This document shows positions 2,186-34,338 of a stretch of DNA of 37,603 bases, piece after piece. The stretch lies in assembly GCA_016125275.1 (NCBI GenBank), contig WGMB01000019.1, forward strand, positions 1-37,603, in the 5' to 3' direction. The notes beneath the pieces are model-generated. The model did not search any database. It worked only from the letters and a program-made list of their open reading frames with translations, and had not been told where the DNA came from. The stretch comes from Acidobacteriota bacterium (lineage in GTDB: Bacteria; Acidobacteriota; Terriglobia; Bryobacterales; UBA6623). The position numbers were made by a program, and so were the translations under genes. The first letter of the stretch is position 1. Every line of letters begins with the position of its first letter.

Positions 2186-4894
<2,709 letters not shown>

Positions 4895-14825: not shown

Positions 14826-14901
14826 GCGGGAGTAACTCAGTTGGTAGAGTGCGACCTTGCCAAGGTCGATGTCGCGGGTTCGAGTCCCGTCTCCCGCTCC
14901 A
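14826..14901 (+). tRNA. tRNA-Gly (GCC)
   Basis: A 76-nt cloverleaf. The acceptor GCGGGAG pairs with CTCCCGC. The D arm is CTCAGTTGGTAGAG, and the anticodon stem CGACC/GGTCG carries the loop TTGCCAA (anticodon GCC). The T arm is CGGGTTCGAGTCCCG, the discriminator is T and CCA is encoded. Confidence 0.97.
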
Positions 14902-14971: not shown

Positions 14972-15045
14972 GGCGCGGTGGCCGAGTGGCTAGGCAGAGG
15001 TCTGCAAAACCTCGTACACCGGTTCGACTCCGGTCCGCGCCTCCA
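14972..15045 (+). tRNA. tRNA-Cys (GCA)
   Basis: A 74-nt cloverleaf. The acceptor GGCGCGG pairs with CCGCGCC. The D arm is GCCGAGTGGCTAGGC, and the anticodon stem GAGGT/ACCTC carries the loop CTGCAAA (anticodon GCA). The T arm is ACCGGTTCGACTCCGGT, the discriminator is T and CCA is encoded. The last 27 nt recur at 16170-16196, so this tRNA appears to be an integration site. Confidence 0.97.
15019..15045 (+). repeat. attL-like 27-bp repeat (tRNA-Cys 3' end)
   Basis: The final 27 nt of tRNA-Cys, from the T-arm stem through the encoded CCA, are identical to 16170-16196 in the same orientation. This is the usual geometry of a tRNA-targeting integrative element. Confidence 0.8.
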
Positions 15046-15244
15046 ATAAAAACACCCGTAAAATCAACTTTTTCAAGGCCTTGCGGAAAACTTCCGGCGG
15101 AGCCTTCATGATCTCAAGGGGTCCCATGAGGGCTGTCGGGACCAGGTTTGGTCCCGGATTTGGTCCCGCGGAACAGTTCCATTGCGGACACAAGCTCACA
15201 ATTCCCTCTCTTCGTGGAATCCGTCCCCACGGCTTTCATGGCGT

Positions 15245-15955
15245 TCAGGAGCGAACAAAGAATCCCCGCATGCCTCTCCGATTGACCTCCAGCCACCCGT
15301 TCTCCGCCTCCCTCATAATGCCCTCGTTGCGAAGCGAGGATAGGTAGGCAGAGACAGTCGGGCGCCTCGCTCCGATCATGCTAGCGATGGCTTCGTGCTT
15401 AATGCGCCGGTTGATGCGCCACCAACCTTCGCCGATTTCCTCCCCCTCCTGGTCCATCAGCTTTTCGATCAAGTTGGAGAGACGGACTTTCAGGTTCGAG
15501 AACTGCACCCCGTGGCGCTCCGCCATCAGGGCTTGACAGGTCTCGCTCAGCGCCTTCACGAGGTTAGAGCCACGCTCCCCTAGAGCGACCATGGTCGCTT
15601 TAGTGTTGATGACCTCCACGGTGCATTCGCCGACCGCTACAGCGGTGAATTCGTAGTCTTGGTCAAGAAACGCCTCCTCACCAATAAGGGTTCCCTCTTC
15701 GGCTGTCCGGCTGACAGAGCCGGACTCCATCTGGACTGAACCCGACAGAATGACGAACGCCTGGGGCGCGCTGGAGCCGGCCCCAAAGATCAACTGGCCA
15801 TCCGAGAACTTCTTGACGCTTGGCGGCTCCTCCGGTTGGTATCCTGTCGAAACAGTGTGATGATGAATACGATCGTCAATCGTGATCGTGATTGTGTACA
15901 ATGCTTTGCTCTCCGGGCTCACTGATTCCATCATGCGTAGTGGAATCAAACACAT
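15245..15955 (-). CDS. Crp/Fnr-family transcriptional regulator
   Basis: A 236-aa regulator. An N-terminal cyclic-nucleotide-binding-like beta domain spans about residues 45-140 (FSDGQLIFGAGSSAPQAFVI, LSGSVQMESG, EEGTLIGEEAFL). A dimerisation helix and a winged helix-turn-helix follow at about 175-225 (RIKHEAIASMIGARRPTVSA then YLSSLRNEGIM). The usual cAMP phosphate-binding RxS signature is not obvious, so another ligand or none is likely. The start at 15955 has an AAGG about 5 nt upstream; ATGs at 15934 or 15931 are alternatives. It is the only gene of the att-flanked insert. Its promoter -10 lies inside an 18-nt palindrome, which suggests autoregulation. Confidence 0.85.
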   Translation of the reverse strand: MCLIPLRMMESVSPESKALYTITITIDDRIHHHTVSTGYQPEEPPSVKKFSDGQLIFGAGSSAPQAFVILSGSVQMESGSVSRTAEEGTLIGEEAFLDQDYEFTAVAVGECTVEVINTKATMVALGERGSNLVKALSETCQALMAERHGVQFSNLKVRLSNLIEKLMDQEGEEIGEGWWRINRRIKHEAIASMIGARRPTVSAYLSSLRNEGIMREAENGWLEVNRRGMRGFFVRS

Positions 15956-16001
15956 CAGACCTTGCAGGCAATAACGCAGGAGCGTCAGGCGAGAACTGAT
16001 T

Positions 16002-16019
16002 TTCGAGATTTTACTCGAA
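16002..16019. promoter_or_regulatory. Palindromic operator candidate over the regulator's -10
   Basis: TTCGAG-ATTTTA-CTCGAA is a perfect 6-6-6 inverted repeat. The minus-strand -10 (TAAAAT, 16013 to 16008) is exactly its central hexamer. Spacing between half-site centres is about one helical turn, as expected for a dimeric regulator. Confidence 0.5.
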
Positions 16020-16037
16020 CGTTACGACGGTCTACAA
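16008..16037 (-). promoter_or_regulatory. Promoter of the Crp/Fnr-type gene
   Basis: On the minus strand, TTGTAG (16037-16032), an 18-nt spacer and TAAAAT (16013-16008). Transcription would start about 45 nt before the ATG at 15955. Confidence 0.55.
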
Positions 16038-16169
16038 CGCAGACTTCTATCTTTCTGTAAAATTCAGGCAGAATCTCGCTGATCCCAGCCTGGGGCCGAA
16101 CACAAGTGATATGCCATTAAGATTCAATGACATAGAGGCAAGACCGCAAGACCTGCGGAACTCCGTTCG

Positions 16170-16196
16170 CCGGTTCGACTCCGGTCCGCGCCTCCA
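16170..16196 (+). repeat. attR-like 27-bp repeat
   Basis: Identical to the last 27 nt of tRNA-Cys. The 19 nt before it (16151-16169) still match the tRNA at 11 positions, including CTGC of the anticodon loop, so this may be an eroded 3' half of an older tRNA copy. It lacks the 5' half and cannot form a tRNA. Confidence 0.8.
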
Positions 16197-16207
16197 CACC
16201 TCCTCCC

Positions 16208-17008
16208 ATGTCTGACACCCCGCTCGCCAAAGAGCTCTCGGTTCTCGACCAGATCCTGGCCCGGAAGCGCGCCGAGCTCATCGCCGACAAGACCCTGCAT
16301 CCGGAAGCGGAGCTGCTGCAGCGCAAGCAGCCCAAGCGCCGCGGCTTTCGCCGCGCGCTCGAAGCGAAGGCGCCGGCGATCATCGCCGAGGTGAAGCGCG
16401 CGTCGCCCTCCGAGGGCCAGATTCGCGACTCCTTCGACCCGATGCTGATCGCCCGGCAGTACGAAGAAGCCGGCGCAGCCTGCTTGTCAGTCCTCACCGA
16501 CAAGCAGTTCTTCGGCGGAACGATCGACGACCTGGTCTCGGCCCGTGCGGCGGTCAGCCTGCCGGTGTTGCGCAAGGACTTCACGCTCGAGGGCTACCAC
16601 CTGCTGCAGGCGGCGGTGCACGGCGCGGACTGCGTGCTGCTGATCGTGGCGGCGCTGGGCGACACCCAACTGGCCGACCTGCTGCATCAAGCGGCCGAGT
16701 TGGGCTTGGACGCTCTGGTCGAGGTTCACGACGAAGGGGAGCTCGACCGGGCCGTCGCCGTCGGCGCGGAGCTGATCGGCGTCAACAACCGCAACCTCAA
16801 GACGCTCGAGGTCTCGCTCGACACCTCGGTGAAGCTGGCCAAGCGCCTGCCGGCCGGCACGCTGGCCGTGAGCGAGAGCGGCATCCGCACGGCTGACGAC
16901 ATCGCGCGGCTGCGCGACGTCGGCTACCGCGGCTTTCTGGTCGGCACCAGTCTGATGAAGCAGGACGAGCCGGGCAAGGCTCTGGCGAAGCTGTTGGGCC
17001 GGGGCTAG
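16208..17008 (+). CDS. trpC: Indole-3-glycerol phosphate synthase
   Basis: A 266-aa TIM-barrel enzyme of tryptophan synthesis that converts 1-(2-carboxyphenylamino)-1-deoxyribulose 5-phosphate to indole-3-glycerol phosphate. Catalytic residues are visible: Glu61 and Lys63 (AEVKRASPSEG), Lys123 (LRKDF), Glu172 (VEVHDE), Asn194 (GVNNRNL) and the SESGI phosphate loop (222-226). Length is typical. No other trp gene is in the window. The ATG lies 11 nt after the att-like repeat, so the inserted segment now supplies whatever lies upstream. Without the insert, trpC would directly follow tRNA-Cys. The next gene starts 20 nt after its stop and is probably cotranscribed. Confidence 0.95.
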   Translation: MSDTPLAKELSVLDQILARKRAELIADKTLHPEAELLQRKQPKRRGFRRALEAKAPAIIAEVKRASPSEGQIRDSFDPMLIARQYEEAGAACLSVLTDKQFFGGTIDDLVSARAAVSLPVLRKDFTLEGYHLLQAAVHGADCVLLIVAALGDTQLADLLHQAAELGLDALVEVHDEGELDRAVAVGAELIGVNNRNLKTLEVSLDTSVKLAKRLPAGTLAVSESGIRTADDIARLRDVGYRGFLVGTSLMKQDEPGKALAKLLGRG

Positions 17009-27207: not shown

Positions 27208-30200
27208 ATGAATCGCTTAGGTTTCTCGGGGCTTTTGGCGGCCCTGTTGCTGACCCTTGGCGCGACTGGGTTCGCGCAGGTCAACAACGGGTCCATCAGC
27301 GGCTCCGTCCTTGATCCCGGCGGCGCCGCCATTCCCGGCGCCCAGGTCACCGCGACCGAAACAGATTCGGGCCGCGTCTTTGAGGTGAGCGCATCGGAGG
27401 CGGGACTGTACGTCTTCCCCAGCCTGCCCACGGGCGTCTACGAAGTGTCGGCCGAGGCCGACGGCTTCAAGCGCCTGACTCGCACCAACATCGAAGTCCG
27501 CATCGCCCAGCGCCTGGCGTTGGACATGACGCTCGAGATCGGCGCGGTCAGTGAATCCGTGGAGGTCACGGCCGCCGCGCCGCTGCTGGAGGCCAACACG
27601 TCCGAGCGCGGCCAGAGCTTCTCCACCAAGTTCATGAGCTCGCTGCCGCTGTTCACCGGCGGCATCCGCAACCCGGAAGCCTTCGTGAGCTACATGCCCG
27701 GGGTCAACAGCGGCGGCGGCCAGCAATCGATTTCCGGCTCCGGCGGACGCGGGAAGGAAGTGCTCATCGACGGCGCTTCGCTGACGATCCCCGAGTCCGG
27801 CGGCGTGGTCTTCAACTTCCCCGCCGCAGAGATGTTCGGCGAGTTCAAGCTGATGACCAGCACCTACAGCGCCGAGTACGGCCGCTTCGGCGGCGGCGTC
27901 GAGATCTTCACCATGAAGTCCGGCACCAACAAGCTGCACGCCGCCGGCTTCTGGAACTTCCGCCGCGACAAGCTCAACGCCGCCGGCTGGGCTATCAACC
28001 GCACCACCGGCGAGCGGCCCAAGCAGCGCTTCAACGAAGTCGGCTTCGGCGTCGGCGGTCCGGTCTACATCCCCAAGGTCTACGACGGCCGCAACAAGAC
28101 CTTCTGGCACATGACCTACTCGCGCGACGAGCGCCCGTCGACGGAGACCTCCACGGTCAGCTCCGTCGCCACCCAGCTCATGAAGCAGGGCGACTTCTCG
28201 CAGTTCGCCTCGCTGGGCGTCTACGATCCGCTGACGACCGCTGGGCAGAGTCGCGAGCTGTTCCCGAACCTGGTGATTCCGCAGTCGCGCTTCAGCTCGG
28301 TCGCGTCGAAGATCCTGCCGTTCATCCCCGACCCGAACATCTCGACGCTGAACAACAACTACCAGTTCAACAACTCGAGCAACCGCAGCGACTACCACTG
28401 GAGCCTGAAGGTCGATCACTCGTTCAACAACGAGCACCGCATCAGCTACTCGCACGCGCTGATCAACCAGAACGTCCAGAACACCACGGCGCTGCCCGGA
28501 CCGCTCGGCCAGGGCCTGGGGACCAACTACCAGAAGCCCCAGAACTTCCGCGTGAACTACGACTGGATCCCCTCGCCGTCGTTCCTCATCCACACCACCT
28601 GGGGCCTTTCGAAGACCCGCCAGGGCTGGGACAACCCCGCGCAGGTGGGCTTTGCCTCGCAGATCGGCCTGCCCGCCGACACCGACGCTACCCCGCGGAT
28701 CATCTTCGACGGCAACGACATTCTGACCGCCTTCGGCGTGCAGGACGGCAAGGTCGCCAACGGCTTCCAGAACAACATCACCTGGCAGTGGAGCCAGGCG
28801 ATGACGTGGCTCAAGGGCAAGCACGAGTTCAAGTTCGGCTGGGACATCCGCCGCTTGGCGACGGTGGCCATCGACGCCGCCGGCACCAACGGCCGCTACG
28901 AGTTCGCCCGCGCCCAAACTGCCCTGCCGACCAACACGGGCGGCACCGGCCACTCGTTCGCGAGCTTCCTGCTGGGCCTACCCAACGACGCCCAGACCGA
29001 AGCGCTGCCTGTGCCGGACGTGCAGATCCGCTACGACTACTACTCGGGCTTCTTCCAAGACAACTGGAAGCTCACCAACCGCCTGACCCTCAACCTGGGC
29101 ATGCGCTATGAGGTGCCGATCGGCTTCCACTTCGCCAACTTCCAGTTCTCATCGGTGGATCTGGCGCTGCCCAACGCCGCCGCCGGCGGTCTGCCCGGCG
29201 CCATGCAGTTCGCCGGTCCGGGCGCGGGCCGCATCGGCCAGTCGCGCTTCTACCCCACCTATTACGGCTCGCTAGGCCCGCGCGCCGGCTTCGCCTATAA
29301 GCTCACCGACAAGACGGTGCTGCGCGCCGGCTACGGCGTCTACTACCAGACGCTGGGCAACGGCGGCTGCGGCTGCACGCTCGGCTTCCGGGGCAACCCG
29401 ACGCGGGTGCAGTCCGACGGACTCTCGGGCGCTATCAACCTCGACAACGGTCTGCCGCCGCAACCGGCCTCGGCCACCCCGCCGTTCCTCGATCCGGCCA
29501 TCGGCAACGGCCTGAACGTGGACTACCTGGGACCGAACTACGGCCGCCCGGCCCGCAACCAGAACTGGAGCGTCAACCTGCAGCATGAGGTCGCCAACTT
29601 CCTCATCGACTTGGCCTACGTCGCCAACCGCGGGACGAGCCTCAACTCGACCATGCCCATCAATCAGGTCGATCCGAAGTACCTGACCCTGGGGCCGCTG
29701 CTGCGTGAGAACATCAACTCGCCGGCAGTCCAGGCGGCCGGCTTCAGCGAGCCGTTCGCAGGCTTCTCGGACCTCTTCGGCGCCGGCGCCACGCTGGCTC
29801 AGGCGCTGCGGCCCTACCCGCAGTTCCTCAACGTCAGTAGCCGCAACTCCGGCGACGGCAAGATCTGGTACGACTCCTTCCAGGCCAAGCTGGAGCGCCG
29901 CTTCGGCAACTGGCAGATGATGACTTCGTACACCTTCTCGAAGTCCCTCAGCGCCAACCACCTGCGCCAGATCTTCTCGCAGCCGGGTCCGCAGAACGCC
30001 TACGACCTGTCGAACACGCGCTCGATTGCTCCTTGGGATCAGCCGCACGTGCTCAACATCCTCAACTCCTACGACCTGCCGTTCGGCAAGGGCCGCAAGT
30101 ACTTCAACAGCGGCGGTTGGAGCGACTATTTGCTCGGCGGCTGGACGATCTCGTCGGCGCAACGCTACTTCTCCGGCAATGTCGCCCAGACCACGGCGTC

Positions 30201-30615
30201 CAACTCCCTGTCGAACATCCTGTTCAACGCCGTCAAGTACGCCGATCCCACCGGGCAGTCGATCCGTACGGGCACGGCGCGCAGCGCGCTCGACCCGGAC
30301 AACAACGAGCGCTACTTCAACCAGACCGCGTTTACGCAACCGGGCCAATATGCGTTCGGCGCCGCGGCTCCGTTCTATCGCGACCTGCGCCAGCCGTTCG
30401 TCTTCCAGGAGAATCTCTCCATCGTCAAGCGGATGACGCTGGTGCCGAACGGCGATCAGCCGGTCAAGTTGCTGTTGCGGGCGGATATGTTCAACCTGTT
30501 CAACCGCAATCAGTTCAACGTGAACACTTCCATCTTCAACACGAACTTTGGACGGGCCACTTCGCCCAACCAACAGCCTCGTATCATCACCATGGGTCTG
30601 CGACTGGAGTTCTGA
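27208..30615 (+). CDS. Oar-type TonB-dependent receptor A
   Basis: A 1135-aa outer-membrane receptor. A signal peptide (about 1-23, ending TGFAQ) is followed by a carboxypeptidase-regulatory-like beta-sandwich (about 27-110, with GSISGSVLDPGGAAIPGAQV and LPTGVYEVSAEADGFKRL). Next come a plug region (about 120-260) and a large beta-barrel ending in the outer-membrane signature GLRLEF with terminal Phe. These receptors import large oligomers with TonB energy. Many acidobacterial genomes carry large families of them, without SusD. It lies 5' of a paralogue of identical length, with a strong terminator between them. The ligand is unknown; glycan or peptide are both possible. Confidence 0.9.
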   Translation: MNRLGFSGLLAALLLTLGATGFAQVNNGSISGSVLDPGGAAIPGAQVTATETDSGRVFEVSASEAGLYVFPSLPTGVYEVSAEADGFKRLTRTNIEVRIAQRLALDMTLEIGAVSESVEVTAAAPLLEANTSERGQSFSTKFMSSLPLFTGGIRNPEAFVSYMPGVNSGGGQQSISGSGGRGKEVLIDGASLTIPESGGVVFNFPAAEMFGEFKLMTSTYSAEYGRFGGGVEIFTMKSGTNKLHAAGFWNFRRDKLNAAGWAINRTTGERPKQRFNEVGFGVGGPVYIPKVYDGRNKTFWHMTYSRDERPSTETSTVSSVATQLMKQGDFSQFASLGVYDPLTTAGQSRELFPNLVIPQSRFSSVASKILPFIPDPNISTLNNNYQFNNSSNRSDYHWSLKVDHSFNNEHRISYSHALINQNVQNTTALPGPLGQGLGTNYQKPQNFRVNYDWIPSPSFLIHTTWGLSKTRQGWDNPAQVGFASQIGLPADTDATPRIIFDGNDILTAFGVQDGKVANGFQNNITWQWSQAMTWLKGKHEFKFGWDIRRLATVAIDAAGTNGRYEFARAQTALPTNTGGTGHSFASFLLGLPNDAQTEALPVPDVQIRYDYYSGFFQDNWKLTNRLTLNLGMRYEVPIGFHFANFQFSSVDLALPNAAAGGLPGAMQFAGPGAGRIGQSRFYPTYYGSLGPRAGFAYKLTDKTVLRAGYGVYYQTLGNGGCGCTLGFRGNPTRVQSDGLSGAINLDNGLPPQPASATPPFLDPAIGNGLNVDYLGPNYGRPARNQNWSVNLQHEVANFLIDLAYVANRGTSLNSTMPINQVDPKYLTLGPLLRENINSPAVQAAGFSEPFAGFSDLFGAGATLAQALRPYPQFLNVSSRNSGDGKIWYDSFQAKLERRFGNWQMMTSYTFSKSLSANHLRQIFSQPGPQNAYDLSNTRSIAPWDQPHVLNILNSYDLPFGKGRKYFNSGGWSDYLLGGWTISSAQRYFSGNVAQTTASNSLSNILFNAVKYADPTGQSIRTGTARSALDPDNNERYFNQTAFTQPGQYAFGAAAPFYRDLRQPFVFQENLSIVKRMTLVPNGDQPVKLLLRADMFNLFNRNQFNVNTSIFNTNFGRATSPNQQPRIITMGLRLEF

Positions 30616-30638
30616 TCTTCAGCCGCCGGCCAAGAGCC

Positions 30639-30670
30639 AACGGGGGGCGCCTTTTCGGGCGCCCCCCGTT
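30639..30670 (+). terminator. Intrinsic terminator of receptor A
   Basis: A 13-bp perfect stem (AACGGGGGGCGCC with GGCGCCCCCCGTT), a 6-nt loop TTTTCG, then the T-rich TCGTTTTC. It begins 23 nt after the receptor A stop, so receptor B is probably transcribed separately. Confidence 0.85.
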
Positions 30671-30930
30671 TCGTTTTCTCTCAACTGGCCTGCAACAACC
30701 CTTTGCCAGCGGCGTCCGGCCAAACCGTTCACGATAAGAACTGCCAAATTGGCGTCACCAAACAGCCCATTCGGTTGGAGCTTCATGCTCCAAATTTCCG
30801 ACCCCATTTCCGCCCGGAGCGGGGCTACCCAGCAGACGGGCGCTGCCTGAAACTTGTCCGATAGGGTGCGCCGCAACTTCGCGGCGCGCCAAGCATTGGC
30901 TCGCTTTCACGCGAGGGGGTACTTTCTTTG
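30671..30930 (+). promoter_or_regulatory. Leader region of receptor B
   Basis: There is no gene here. It holds three hairpins: TTGGAGC/GCTCCAA (30775-30793), GCGCCGC/GCGGCGC with loop AACTTC (30868-30887) and CTCGC/GCGAG (30900-30915). The last hairpin runs into the purine-rich GAGGGGG and the motif GGGGTACTTT (30916-30925) just before the ATG, so it could mask the ribosome site. I see no convincing -35/-10 pair; TTGTCC followed closely by GATAGG near 30854 is too tight. Confidence 0.4.
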
Positions 30931-33900
30931 ATGAATCGCTTTGGTTTGAAGTCCATTGGGGCCGCATTCCTGTGGCTGGCAATGGCCGGGGCCCTGTCAG
31001 CCCAGTCGAATACCGGCTCGATCAGCGGATCGGTTCTCGATCCCGGCGGCGCCGCTATTCCCGGAGCCGCGGTCACAGCCACTGACACGGCTTCCGGCCG
31101 TGAATACGAGGCCGCTTCTTCAGAAGCCGGCCTTTATGTGTTTCCGAGCTTGCCCACGGGTATTTACGAAGTCTCGGCCGAGGCCGACGGGTTCAAGCGC
31201 CTTACCCGCAGCAATATCGAGGTTCGTATCGCGCAGCGCCTGGCCATGGACCTGACGCTCGAGATCGGCGCCGTGACCGAGACGGTCGAGGTGACCTCCG
31301 TGGCCCCCTTGCTCGAAGCCAATACTTCCGAGCGCGGCCAGAGCTTCTCCACGAAGTTCATGACCTCCCTGCCGCTGTTCACCGGCGGCATCCGCAACGC
31401 GGAAGCCTTCGTCACCTACATGCCCGGCGTCAACAGCGGCGGCGGCAACCAGTCCATCGGCGGCTCCGGCGGACGCGCCAAGGAAGTGCTCATCGACGGC
31501 GCTTCGCTGACGATCCCCGAGTCCGGCGGCGTGGTCTTCAACTTCCCCGCCGCGGAGATGTTCGGCGAGTTCAAGCTCGTCACCAGCACCTATAGCGCCG
31601 AGTACGGCCGCTTCGGCGGCGGCGTCGAGATCTTCACCATGAAGTCCGGCACCAACCAGCTTCACGCGACAGGCTTCTGGAACTTCCGCCGTGACGCCCT
31701 CAACGCCGCCGGCTGGAACAACAACACGGTCGGACGCCACAAGCCCAAAGAGCGCTTCAACGAGCTCGGCGTGGGCGTCGGTGGCCCCATCTACATTCCG
31801 AAAGTCTACGACGGCCGCAACAAGACCTTCTGGTTCTTCACCTACTCGCGGGACGAGCGTCCGGCGACCGCTACGCCGACGACCAGCTCCGTCGCGACCG
31901 CGTTGATGCGGCAGGGCGACTTCTCGGAGATCGGGCGGGCTATCTATGACCCGCTGACCACCGCCGGCCAGAGCCGCGACCTGTTCGCCAACGCGATCAT
32001 CCCCCGCAGCCGCTTCAACACGGTGGCCGCCAACATTCTGCCGTACATCCCGGACGCGAACCTGAACAAGGTCGGCGACAACTACAACTTCCTGAACGTC
32101 TCCAACCTCACCGACTACCACTGGAGCCTGAAGTTCGACCACGCCTTCAACGAGCAGCACCGGGTGAGCTACTCGCAGACGATGCAGAACCAGGACACCC
32201 GCGCGGTCACGGCGTTGCCGGGTCCGCTGGGCCAGGGCCTGGGCTCGAGCTTCCAGCGGCCGCAGAACTTCCGCGCCAACCACGACTGGACGCCCACGCC
32301 GTCGCTGCTGATCCACACCACCTGGGGCCTGTCGAAGACGCGCCAAGGCTGGGACAACCCCGCGCAGGCGGGCTTCGCCTCGCTGGTCGGGCTGCCGGCT
32401 GATACCGACGCCACGCCGCGCATCCTGTTCGACTCCAACGACAACCTGACCGCGTTCGGCGTGCAGGACGGCAAGGTCGCCAACGGCTTCCAGAACAACA
32501 TCACGTGGCACTGGAACCAGGCGATCACCTGGATCAAGGGCAAGCACGAGTTCAAGTTCGGCTGGGACATCCGCCACCTGTCGACCGTCGCGATGGACGC
32601 CGCGGGCACCAACGGCCTGTACCGCTTCGCGCGGGCGCAGACCGCTCTGCCCTCCAACACCGGCGGCACCGGCAACTCCTTCGCCAGCTTCCTGCTCGGC
32701 GCGCCGACTTCGGCCGAGACCGCGGCCCTGCCCGTTCCGGACGTGCAGATCCGCTACGAGTACTACTCCGGCTTCTTCCAGGACAACTGGAAGCTGACCA
32801 ACCGCCTGACCCTGAACCTCGGCATGCGCTATGAGGTTCCGGTGGGCTTCCACTTCGCCAACTACCAGTTCTCGTCGGTGAACCTGACGATCCCGAACGC
32901 CGCCGCGGGCGGTTTGCCGGGCGCCATGCAGTTCGCCGGTCCCGGCGCGGGCCGCACGGGCACGTCGAAGTTCTATCCGACCGACTACACCGCCATCGGA
33001 CCTCGCGCGGGCTTCGCCTACCGCTTGACCGACAAGACGGTGCTGCGCGGCGGCTACGGCATGTTCTACCAGACGCTGGGCAACGGCGGCTGCGGCTGCA
33101 CGCTGGGCTTCGCCGGCGCGCCGACGCAGGTCGTCTCCGACGGCATCAACGGCGCCTTCAACTTCGCGGGAGGCATCCCGGTGCCGGCCAACACGGCTCG
33201 CCCGCCGTTCATCGACCCCACCTTCGGCAACGGCCGCGACGTGGACTACCTGGGAGCGAACTTCGGAGCGCCGCCGCGGAACCAGAACTGGAGCATCAAC
33301 GTGCAGCACACGGTCAAGAACTTCTTGATCGACGTGGCCTACGTGGCCAATCGCGGCACTGGTCTCAACTCCACCATTCCGCTCAACCAGGTCGATCCGA
33401 AGTACCTCAGCCTCGGCCCGCTCCTGCGCCAGAACATCAACTCGCCTGAGGTGCAGGCGGCCGGCTTCACGGAGCCATTCGCGGGCTTCTCGGCTCTGTA
33501 CGGCGCCGGCGCCACCCTGGCGCAGGCCCTGCGGCCCTACCCGCAGTTCCGCAACGTCTCCAGCCGCAACTCGGGTGACGGCGCGGTCTGGTACGACGCC
33601 TTCCAGGCCAAGCTGGAGCGCCGCTTCGGAAGCTGGCAGATGATGACCTCGTACACGTTCTCGAAGTCCCTGGTGAAGCTGCACCAACGGCAGATCTTCT
33701 CCCAGCCCGGCCCGCAGAACGCCTACGACCTGTCCGGCGAGCGGACGATCGCGCAGACCGATCAGCCGCACGTGCTCAACATCCTCAACTCGTTCGACCT
33801 GCCGGTCGGCAAGGGACGCCGCTTCCTCAACAAGGGCGGCGTGGTCAACACGATTGTCGGCGGCTGGACCGTTTCGGCGGCGCAGCGCTACTTCTCCGGC

Positions 33901-34338
33901 AACGTGGCCCCGGCGACGGTCAGCAACACCCTGGCGAACACTCTGTTCAACAGCCAGCGCTACGCCAACCCGACGGGTCAGTCGATCCTGACCGGCGTGG
34001 CGCACCACGACCTGGACCCGGCCAACGACAACCGCTACTTCAACGCGACCGCGTTCGCGTTGCCGTCGGAGTTCTCGTTCGGCACCGGCTCGTTCTACTA
34101 CCGCGCCTTCCGCCAGCCGTTCAACTTCCAGGAGAACATGTCGTTGTCCAAGAAGATCACGTTGGTTCCCAACGGCGATCAGCCGGTGCAGTTGCAGTTG
34201 CGGGCGGACTTCTTCAACCTGTTCAACCGCAACCAGTTCAACGTGAACACCACGCTGTTCAACGCGAACTTCGGCCGGGCGACCTCGCCGAACCAGGGCG
34301 CGCGCGTCATCACGATGGGCCTGCGCATCGACTTCTAA
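30931..34338 (+). CDS. Oar-type TonB-dependent receptor B
   Basis: A 1135-aa paralogue of receptor A, the same length to the residue and colinear along its whole length. A signal peptide (about 1-24, ending ALSAQS) precedes the carboxypeptidase-regulatory-like domain (GSISGSVLDPGGAAIPGAAV), plug and beta-barrel ending in GLRIDF. Some segments are nearly identical to A in DNA, while others differ at many silent sites, so the pair looks like an old tandem duplication with later gene conversion. The ATG at 30931 aligns exactly with the receptor A start (both MNR); an adjoining TTG at 30928 is ignored. A strong terminator follows the gene. Confidence 0.9.
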   Translation: MNRFGLKSIGAAFLWLAMAGALSAQSNTGSISGSVLDPGGAAIPGAAVTATDTASGREYEAASSEAGLYVFPSLPTGIYEVSAEADGFKRLTRSNIEVRIAQRLAMDLTLEIGAVTETVEVTSVAPLLEANTSERGQSFSTKFMTSLPLFTGGIRNAEAFVTYMPGVNSGGGNQSIGGSGGRAKEVLIDGASLTIPESGGVVFNFPAAEMFGEFKLVTSTYSAEYGRFGGGVEIFTMKSGTNQLHATGFWNFRRDALNAAGWNNNTVGRHKPKERFNELGVGVGGPIYIPKVYDGRNKTFWFFTYSRDERPATATPTTSSVATALMRQGDFSEIGRAIYDPLTTAGQSRDLFANAIIPRSRFNTVAANILPYIPDANLNKVGDNYNFLNVSNLTDYHWSLKFDHAFNEQHRVSYSQTMQNQDTRAVTALPGPLGQGLGSSFQRPQNFRANHDWTPTPSLLIHTTWGLSKTRQGWDNPAQAGFASLVGLPADTDATPRILFDSNDNLTAFGVQDGKVANGFQNNITWHWNQAITWIKGKHEFKFGWDIRHLSTVAMDAAGTNGLYRFARAQTALPSNTGGTGNSFASFLLGAPTSAETAALPVPDVQIRYEYYSGFFQDNWKLTNRLTLNLGMRYEVPVGFHFANYQFSSVNLTIPNAAAGGLPGAMQFAGPGAGRTGTSKFYPTDYTAIGPRAGFAYRLTDKTVLRGGYGMFYQTLGNGGCGCTLGFAGAPTQVVSDGINGAFNFAGGIPVPANTARPPFIDPTFGNGRDVDYLGANFGAPPRNQNWSINVQHTVKNFLIDVAYVANRGTGLNSTIPLNQVDPKYLSLGPLLRQNINSPEVQAAGFTEPFAGFSALYGAGATLAQALRPYPQFRNVSSRNSGDGAVWYDAFQAKLERRFGSWQMMTSYTFSKSLVKLHQRQIFSQPGPQNAYDLSGERTIAQTDQPHVLNILNSFDLPVGKGRRFLNKGGVVNTIVGGWTVSAAQRYFSGNVAPATVSNTLANTLFNSQRYANPTGQSILTGVAHHDLDPANDNRYFNATAFALPSEFSFGTGSFYYRAFRQPFNFQENMSLSKKITLVPNGDQPVQLQLRADFFNLFNRNQFNVNTTLFNANFGRATSPNQGARVITMGLRIDF

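Follow-up and report, generated by a model that had tools for sequence, protein, structure and literature searches.

Islands integrated at tRNA genes, as the Islander catalogue describes them (PMC4383910), combine an intact tRNA gene, a displaced 3' fragment of that gene lying downstream in the same orientation, and foreign DNA between the two. In the catalogue's table, anticodon-centred sites account for 2083 of 3919 islands, and in its site class A the fragment begins at the anticodon loop and continues to the 3' end of the tRNA. The criteria set out there reject candidates that lack an integrase or fall below 2 kb, with lengths ranging from 2 to 200 kb. A second precedent concerns tRNA-Cys itself: an account of the tRNA gene fragments that integration events leave behind (PMC9897764) includes, in Pseudomonas fluorescens SBW25, a tRNA-Cys pair around a putative island of ~121 kb, so tRNA-Cys as a target is not new.

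Our window, the whole stretch of DNA that was analysed, is a contig of 37,603 bp (contig C16 of genome G000, from an uncultured bacterium of the Bryobacterales, Acidobacteriota, which amounts to 7.55 Mb in 20 contigs), and it holds a very small islet with the same anatomy as the Islander islands. A complete tRNA-Cys and a displaced fragment are present on the same replicon in the same orientation, with foreign DNA between them; the fragment starts at the anticodon loop, as in class A, reaches the end of the tRNA and is not part of a full tRNA gene. The islet differs from the catalogued islands in that no integrase gene lies inside or overlaps it and in that its length, 1151 bp, is outside the range of 2–200 kb. 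Because the catalogue requires both an integrase and 2 kb, the islet is classed here as an island remnant and not as a mobile island, and remnants of this kind lie outside the catalogue by design. As in the SBW25 island, a partial copy of tRNA-Cys marks the far end of the inserted DNA, but that island is large whereas here one gene is left. The islet is most likely derived from a tRNA-integrated genomic island. Our main reading, to which we assign a probability of roughly 0.8, is that the interval would be an element once integrated at tRNA-Cys that has since decayed to a remnant and lost its integrase. The features on which this reading is built are collected in Table 1.

Table 1. Features of the tRNA-Cys islet and its immediate flanks (positions within the window)
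Feature	Position	Strand	Basis and remarks
tRNA-Gly(GCC), 5' partner in the tRNA-Gly/tRNA-Cys pair	14826..14901	+	ARAGORN, Rfam
tRNA-Cys(GCA), intact, target gene	14972..15045	+	ARAGORN, Rfam 60.7 bits
tRNA-side attachment copy, anticodon loop to CCA	15002..15045	+	Repeat search, pattern search; perfect core 15019-15045
Islet left end, no recognised gene	15046..15244	.	5/6 reading-frame pieces scanned, no Pfam match
Crp/Fnr-family regulator, intact, 236 aa	15245..15955	-	Pfam cNMP_binding + HTH_Crp_2
Islet right end, between divergent regulator and trpC	15956..16152	.	Holds palindrome 16002-16019
Displaced tRNA-Cys 3' fragment, distal attachment copy	16153..16196	+	Repeat search; no tRNA gene by ARAGORN; perfect core 16170-16196
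trpC, indole-3-glycerol phosphate synthase, first gene past the islet	16208..17008	+	Pfam IGPS E 4.9e-86

The original prediction described a 27-bp direct repeat of the tRNA 3' end around 1151 bp of DNA, and this is what we observe: the 27 bases at the 3' end of tRNA-Cys are found again at the distal copy without a mismatch (27/27), with 1151 bp from start to start. A search for the 27-mer with up to three mismatches gives two matches within the window and, in 100 shuffles, no match at all; the only extra match in the whole genome is inside the second complete tRNA-Cys gene of G000, on contig C18. The repeat extends imperfectly as far as the anticodon loop, with 38/44 bases (86%) identical over the two copies. 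The 5' half of the tRNA does not belong to it, as only 8 of 30 bases match at the displaced copy. This extent is the one expected of an "anticodon-type" attachment site. The inner 17 nt match at 11 positions, and 25 of 37,586 window positions, the query included, do as well; since six of these 17 nt differ from the host tRNA, the repeat is less faithful in this section than are the controls from the same genome described below. The distal attachment sequence had no match in a search of viral contigs.

The DNA between the two copies, 1124 bp in length, was acquired and is of foreign composition. It has a GC content of 55.0%, compared with 66.8% for the contig; all 341 window pieces and all 355 pieces taken from four other loci of the genome lie above this value. 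In 3-mer composition it stands at a distance of 0.39, and no window piece exceeds 0.27. The lower GC that had been noted for the interval thus held up when GC and k-mer profile were checked as proposed, the islet being an outlier in both. The islet is single-copy: its own genome has no second copy, nor do the 256 others examined from the order. Its DNA has matches in only four of those 256, each of 28–40 bp and each within a 3-kb locus that contains neither a tRNA gene nor a match to the integrase queries, and it has no match at E 1e-5 in plasmid and phage records.

The sole recognisable gene in the interval is the 236-aa open reading frame of a Crp/Fnr regulator, in agreement with the original prediction. 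Its membership of the family is given by a cyclic-nucleotide-binding fold (PF00027, E 1.1e-10, residues 48–119) and a Crp-type helix-turn-helix (PF13545, E 2.3e-9), both above curated cut-offs, with ~45 residues preceding the cyclic-nucleotide-binding fold. The protein is only remotely similar to solved regulators of the Crp family. Thermus LdrP and SdrP, the latter effector-independent, are among its nearest named or solved relatives and share its two-domain architecture. With 32.8 bits against a cut-off of 300, however, it falls outside the LdrP family as defined by NCBIfam NF052518. Homologues at E 1e-3 or better occur in 9 of 60 relatives (best E 3e-7, 28% identity), and in a 396-genome sample of the phylum two genomes besides its own reach 1e-10, both at 30% identity. 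We detected no paralogue in the genome itself at E 1e-3 and no match among plasmids, and confirmed no close homologue in 35 pattern stretches of genome contigs or four of viral contigs, in scans that are sensitive to close relatives of the regulator only. By these comparisons the regulator is an orphan.

No integrase was found in the interval, in keeping with the prediction. All ten PF00589 matches of the genome lie on contigs other than that of the islet; tblastn with 12 integrases as queries, ten from the same genome and two from relatives, picked up neither an integrase nor a fragment of one in the islet or elsewhere in the window; and a Pfam scan of 10 of the 12 six-frame pieces from the islet ends gave no match. 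The integrating agent is therefore deduced from the anatomy of the site. A tRNA-Cys-type tyrosine recombinase, which the original prediction proposed to look for in the genome, did not emerge either: six of the ten integrases stand beside a complete tRNA, each time one for Ser, Leu, Ala or Gly. The integrases linked to tRNA-Cys in relatives (L080 and L075 types, see below) are 22–27% identical to those of the genome over at least 150 residues, with one 59-residue piece of the comparison reaching 41%.

The left end of the islet contains TTTGGTCCC twice with a 12-base period (15147-15167). This tandem is a possible arm-type site of an integrase, and possibly a relic of the lost one, which we offer as a weak lead. 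The same 12-base-period tandem is found in one marine phage group, in four stretches from viral contigs (L211-L214), and an Arm-DNA-bind_5 protein adjoins it in two of them (L213 and L214). In this phage group the tandem reads GGGACCAAA, again repeated every 12 bases, and a further copy, the third, stands 213 bases on, just before the Arm-DNA-bind_5 protein where that is visible. The GGGACCAAA copies are possible integrase arm sites; the protein is most likely an integrase, and has no PF00589 match at 1e-3. The fifth stretch of the tandem scan (L210) proved to be a simple coding-type repeat and was set aside. A wider form of the pattern gave 16 stretches, compared with three for the reversed control. 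In all 11 newly found stretches the motif is inside a mechanical open reading frame, and in L217, the one among them with an integrase match, it is ~2 kb from that match. Because these further matches fall inside reading frames, the TTTGGTCCC tandem is taken as a lead only. It is present in only 2 of 200 genomes of the order.

Displaced tRNA fragments elsewhere in the same genome provide controls for the anatomy. We surveyed the 47 tRNA genes of G000 up to ~22 kb downstream, with at least 10 kb examined for 40 of them, and found a partial exact repeat of the 3' end of at least 16 bases for two, tRNA-Cys and tRNA-Leu(CAA). The latter bounds an island of ~14.2 kb on contig C6 (~181340-195652) whose repeat is 24 nt long and whose integrase adjoins the tRNA. 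Outside the reach of this survey, tRNA-Gly(CCC) on contig C7 has two displaced fragments in the same orientation, ~82 kb and ~94 kb downstream, each of which comprises 45 exact nt from the anticodon loop to CCA (the set lies at about 161574-161619, 174064-174110 and 255879-255955). One integrase adjoins tRNA-Gly(CCC) and another, 44% identical to it, adjoins the first fragment; the arrangement probably represents two islands in tandem. The displaced tRNA-Cys copy ahead of trpC spans the same part of its tRNA as these tRNA-Gly(CCC) fragments do.

Among the ten integrases of the genome, L039 and L041 are 67% identical; these and L032 and L038 are all on minus strands. Integrase-like proteins on contigs C19 (~3267-3749) and C1 (~3861-4340) are 67% identical over 393 residues, and each adjoins a tRNA-Leu gene, the two genes having different anticodons.

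The genus is represented in our sample by G000 alone, and we compared 17 relatives from the family. Of the 17 family loci, 16, belonging to 15 genomes, contain the tRNA-Gly/tRNA-Cys pair; the remaining locus (G016) starts inside tRNA-Gly, where the end of the contig cuts the pair, and no such locus of G013 was among the matches listed. An identical tRNA-Cys of 75 nt is common to 15 of the 17 loci and a 16th differs from it by one base, while G000 and G002 have a 74-nt variant. The downstream DNA examined amounts to 0–27 kb per locus, several contigs ending within a few kb. At five of the 17 loci (G007, G010 twice, G014 and G015) a tyrosine integrase of the L080 or L075 type, or a piece of one, lies downstream, the two types being 42% identical to each other. 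PF00589 was confirmed in four of the five; in the remaining case, a piece in G010, Pfam gave no match, and the piece is 67% identical to the L075 integrase over 216 residues. A long displaced tRNA-Cys fragment is present at two loci, G006 and G011. The G011 interval measures ~22.2 kb and is closed by a 49-nt fragment with four mismatches, its GC content being the same as that of the flanks. In the downstream DNA examined, ten of the 17 loci have neither a fragment nor a related integrase, one of which (G012) is without DNA past tRNA-Cys. Judged by the sequences of these loci, the tRNA-Cys of the pair is an integration hot spot in this Bryobacterales family.

The closest counterpart to the islet among these loci is that of G006 (L084, L199), in which a 13.5-kb stretch at tRNA-Cys is closed by a fragment matching at 46/46 positions. 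The target tRNA is the same, the extent of the fragment is closely similar, and no tyrosine integrase was found within the stretch by tblastn; an integrase-less occupant of tRNA-Cys, so far as this search goes, is therefore not unique to our window. The stretch has a GC content of 58.5%, against 64% around it. Unlike the islet, it carries an hsdM-type methylase and an IS3-like transposase (rve, HTH_21), which were identified among five open reading frames compared with Pfam, one of which had no match; ParA-like and 8xMP matches were weak and below the cut-off. No sequence common to the islet and the G006 stretch was found. Beyond the G006 fragment, at 18.2–18.6 kb, lies a weak resemblance to an integrase, with 28% identity to L034 over 144 residues (E 1.6e-5). 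The DNA past the fragment resembles that following tRNA-Cys in G008 (71% over 146 bp) and G009 (76% over 62 bp), a likeness that fits an empty site and could also come from the left end of another shared element. G006 is the only locus that offered a comparison of this empty-site kind.

Given the same anatomy elsewhere in the genome and the use of tRNA-Cys in the family, the interval is best read as an element integrated at tRNA-Cys. A repeat that matches at 27/27 and 38/44 positions without extending into the 5' half argues for this reading, as do the foreign composition and the near absence of homologous DNA from the other genomes of the order, and the tRNA-Gly(CCC) fragments and the tRNA-Leu(CAA) island pair repeats of this sort with integrases in the very same genome. 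The element would have brought with it a copy of the 3' part of tRNA-Cys and integrated into the gene through site-specific recombination by a tyrosine integrase, with the crossover within the block from anticodon loop to CCA. The attachment copy of the element would have restored the tRNA gene on the left, giving the tRNA-Cys that is intact today, and the old 3' end would have been displaced to the right, ahead of trpC. A later internal deletion would then have removed the integrase and most of the cargo, leaving both attachment copies, end sequences of ~400 bp in all and, still intact, a single Crp/Fnr gene. We infer from the anatomy that an integrase made the insertion, that it was lost by deletion and that trpC was the neighbour before the insertion. 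Several observations weigh against the element: neither an integrase nor a piece of one turned up in the interval; the genus is represented by one genome and no empty site is known for it; 1.15 kb is far below the usual size of an island; the inner repeat is weaker than that of the controls; the GC of the G011 interval equals that of its flanks; and ten of the 17 family loci bear neither signature. Taken as a whole, the earlier picture of a foreign islet integrated at tRNA-Cys, with a lone regulator and without an integrase, is upheld, and the islet is absent from the relatives examined. Conservation of the same arrangement in relatives, with vertical inheritance of the regulator, had been named as grounds for abandoning this picture; we looked for it and did not find it.

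The original prediction had allowed for either a decayed element or a small one mobilised in trans, and it is decay that our results favour. The perfection of both core repeats and the intact reading frame of the regulator speak for a minimal element that is still mobile, made up of an attachment site and one cargo gene and served by an integrase acting in trans; so do the G006 stretch, which occupies the same tRNA likewise without a detected tyrosine integrase, and the presence of tRNA-Cys-linked integrases in the family. Such mobility is nevertheless unlikely, given that neither the genome itself nor the 256 others of the order contain a second copy of the islet, that the PF00589 matches are all off the contig and the six tRNA-adjacent ones at Ser, Leu, Ala and Gly genes, and that the tRNA-Cys-linked integrases of relatives show only the 22–27% identity to those of the genome (over at least 150 residues) given above.

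Two further explanations dispense with an integrated element. The displaced copy could be a tandem duplicate of tRNA-Cys that has lost its 5' half, with unrelated sequence in between, and it does show six differences from the adjacent tRNA over 44 positions, which would suit a duplicate of some age, in a genome that has a second tRNA-Cys on another contig. We consider this very improbable: none of the 17 family loci has a second tRNA-Cys within the stretches examined, the fragment starts at the anticodon loop to within a few bases of where those of G006, G011 and tRNA-Gly start, and the interval is compositionally foreign. That foreign composition also counts against an ordinary resident regulator of trpC lying by chance between tRNA-like sequences. 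This last explanation would suit the divergent orientation of the regulator and trpC and the palindrome of Crp-site geometry between them, but the homologues of the regulator are remote only (in 9 of 60 relatives, the best at 28% identity, and at 30% in two of the 396-genome sample) and no neighbourhood is conserved, and we find it barely credible. A decayed tRNA-Cys element remains our preferred reading.

On the far side of the islet, the ATG of trpC lies 11 bases past the displaced tRNA-Cys copy. Each of 18 family genomes has one trpC match. No tRNA was found in the trpC loci of 17 relatives, with flanks of up to 1.5 kb per side, or in the 13–14-kb trpC loci of ten relatives; among 80 trpC loci listed from genome contigs, with unequal flanks, none contains tRNA-Cys and six contain another tRNA. 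No other gene of the window lies near trpC in the ten relatives, where trpC is matched alone. Around the tRNA pair, remote matches (26–27%) to the outer membrane proteins encoded at 27208-34338 occur at two of the 17 loci and at none of the other 15. These are TonB-receptor-like proteins encoded by a tandem pair of genes (27208-30615 and 30928-34338) and 76% identical over 1136 aa. Because gene order is too labile, the former neighbour of tRNA-Cys cannot be read from relatives. The claim that the insertion parted tRNA-Cys from trpC gained no backing from relatives, as none examined has tRNA-Cys beside trpC and the neighbourhoods are unlike that of the window. If recombination at the two copies brought the islet in, the junction before the insertion would have read tRNA-Cys, 11 bases, trpC, a reconstruction drawn from the window itself.

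The nearest upstream DNA of trpC is a region of 252 bp that it shares divergently with the regulator, and in this region lies the palindrome TTCGAG-N6-CTCGAA. Crp-type sites are palindromes of 6-N6-6 geometry, and by geometry this one is a candidate Crp-type site, which is suggestive only: a perfect 6-N6-6 palindrome arises in 5.2% of shuffles of the 252-bp region, and any perfect palindrome with 6-base arms and a spacer of 4–8 in 19%. A promoter scan of the right end gave one promoter-like site against 0.5 expected, not clearly above chance; no terminator was found in a scan of the same end, and its RNA fold has a z-score of -0.17. It is conceivable, though improbable, that the remnant was kept because it has a function, that of an islet reduced to a regulator which took the place of the trpC promoter region. 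Were this so, tryptophan synthesis would be run from the divergent promoter of the islet by its own Crp/Fnr regulator, acting through the candidate palindrome.

The islet is a small, ordinary case of a known kind of tRNA-integrated DNA. It illustrates how far a tRNA-integrated island can shrink with both copies still perfect over 27 bp, and catalogues that demand an integrase and 2 kb miss remnants of its type. In the family, the tRNA-Cys hot spot has both integrase-bearing and apparently integrase-less occupants.
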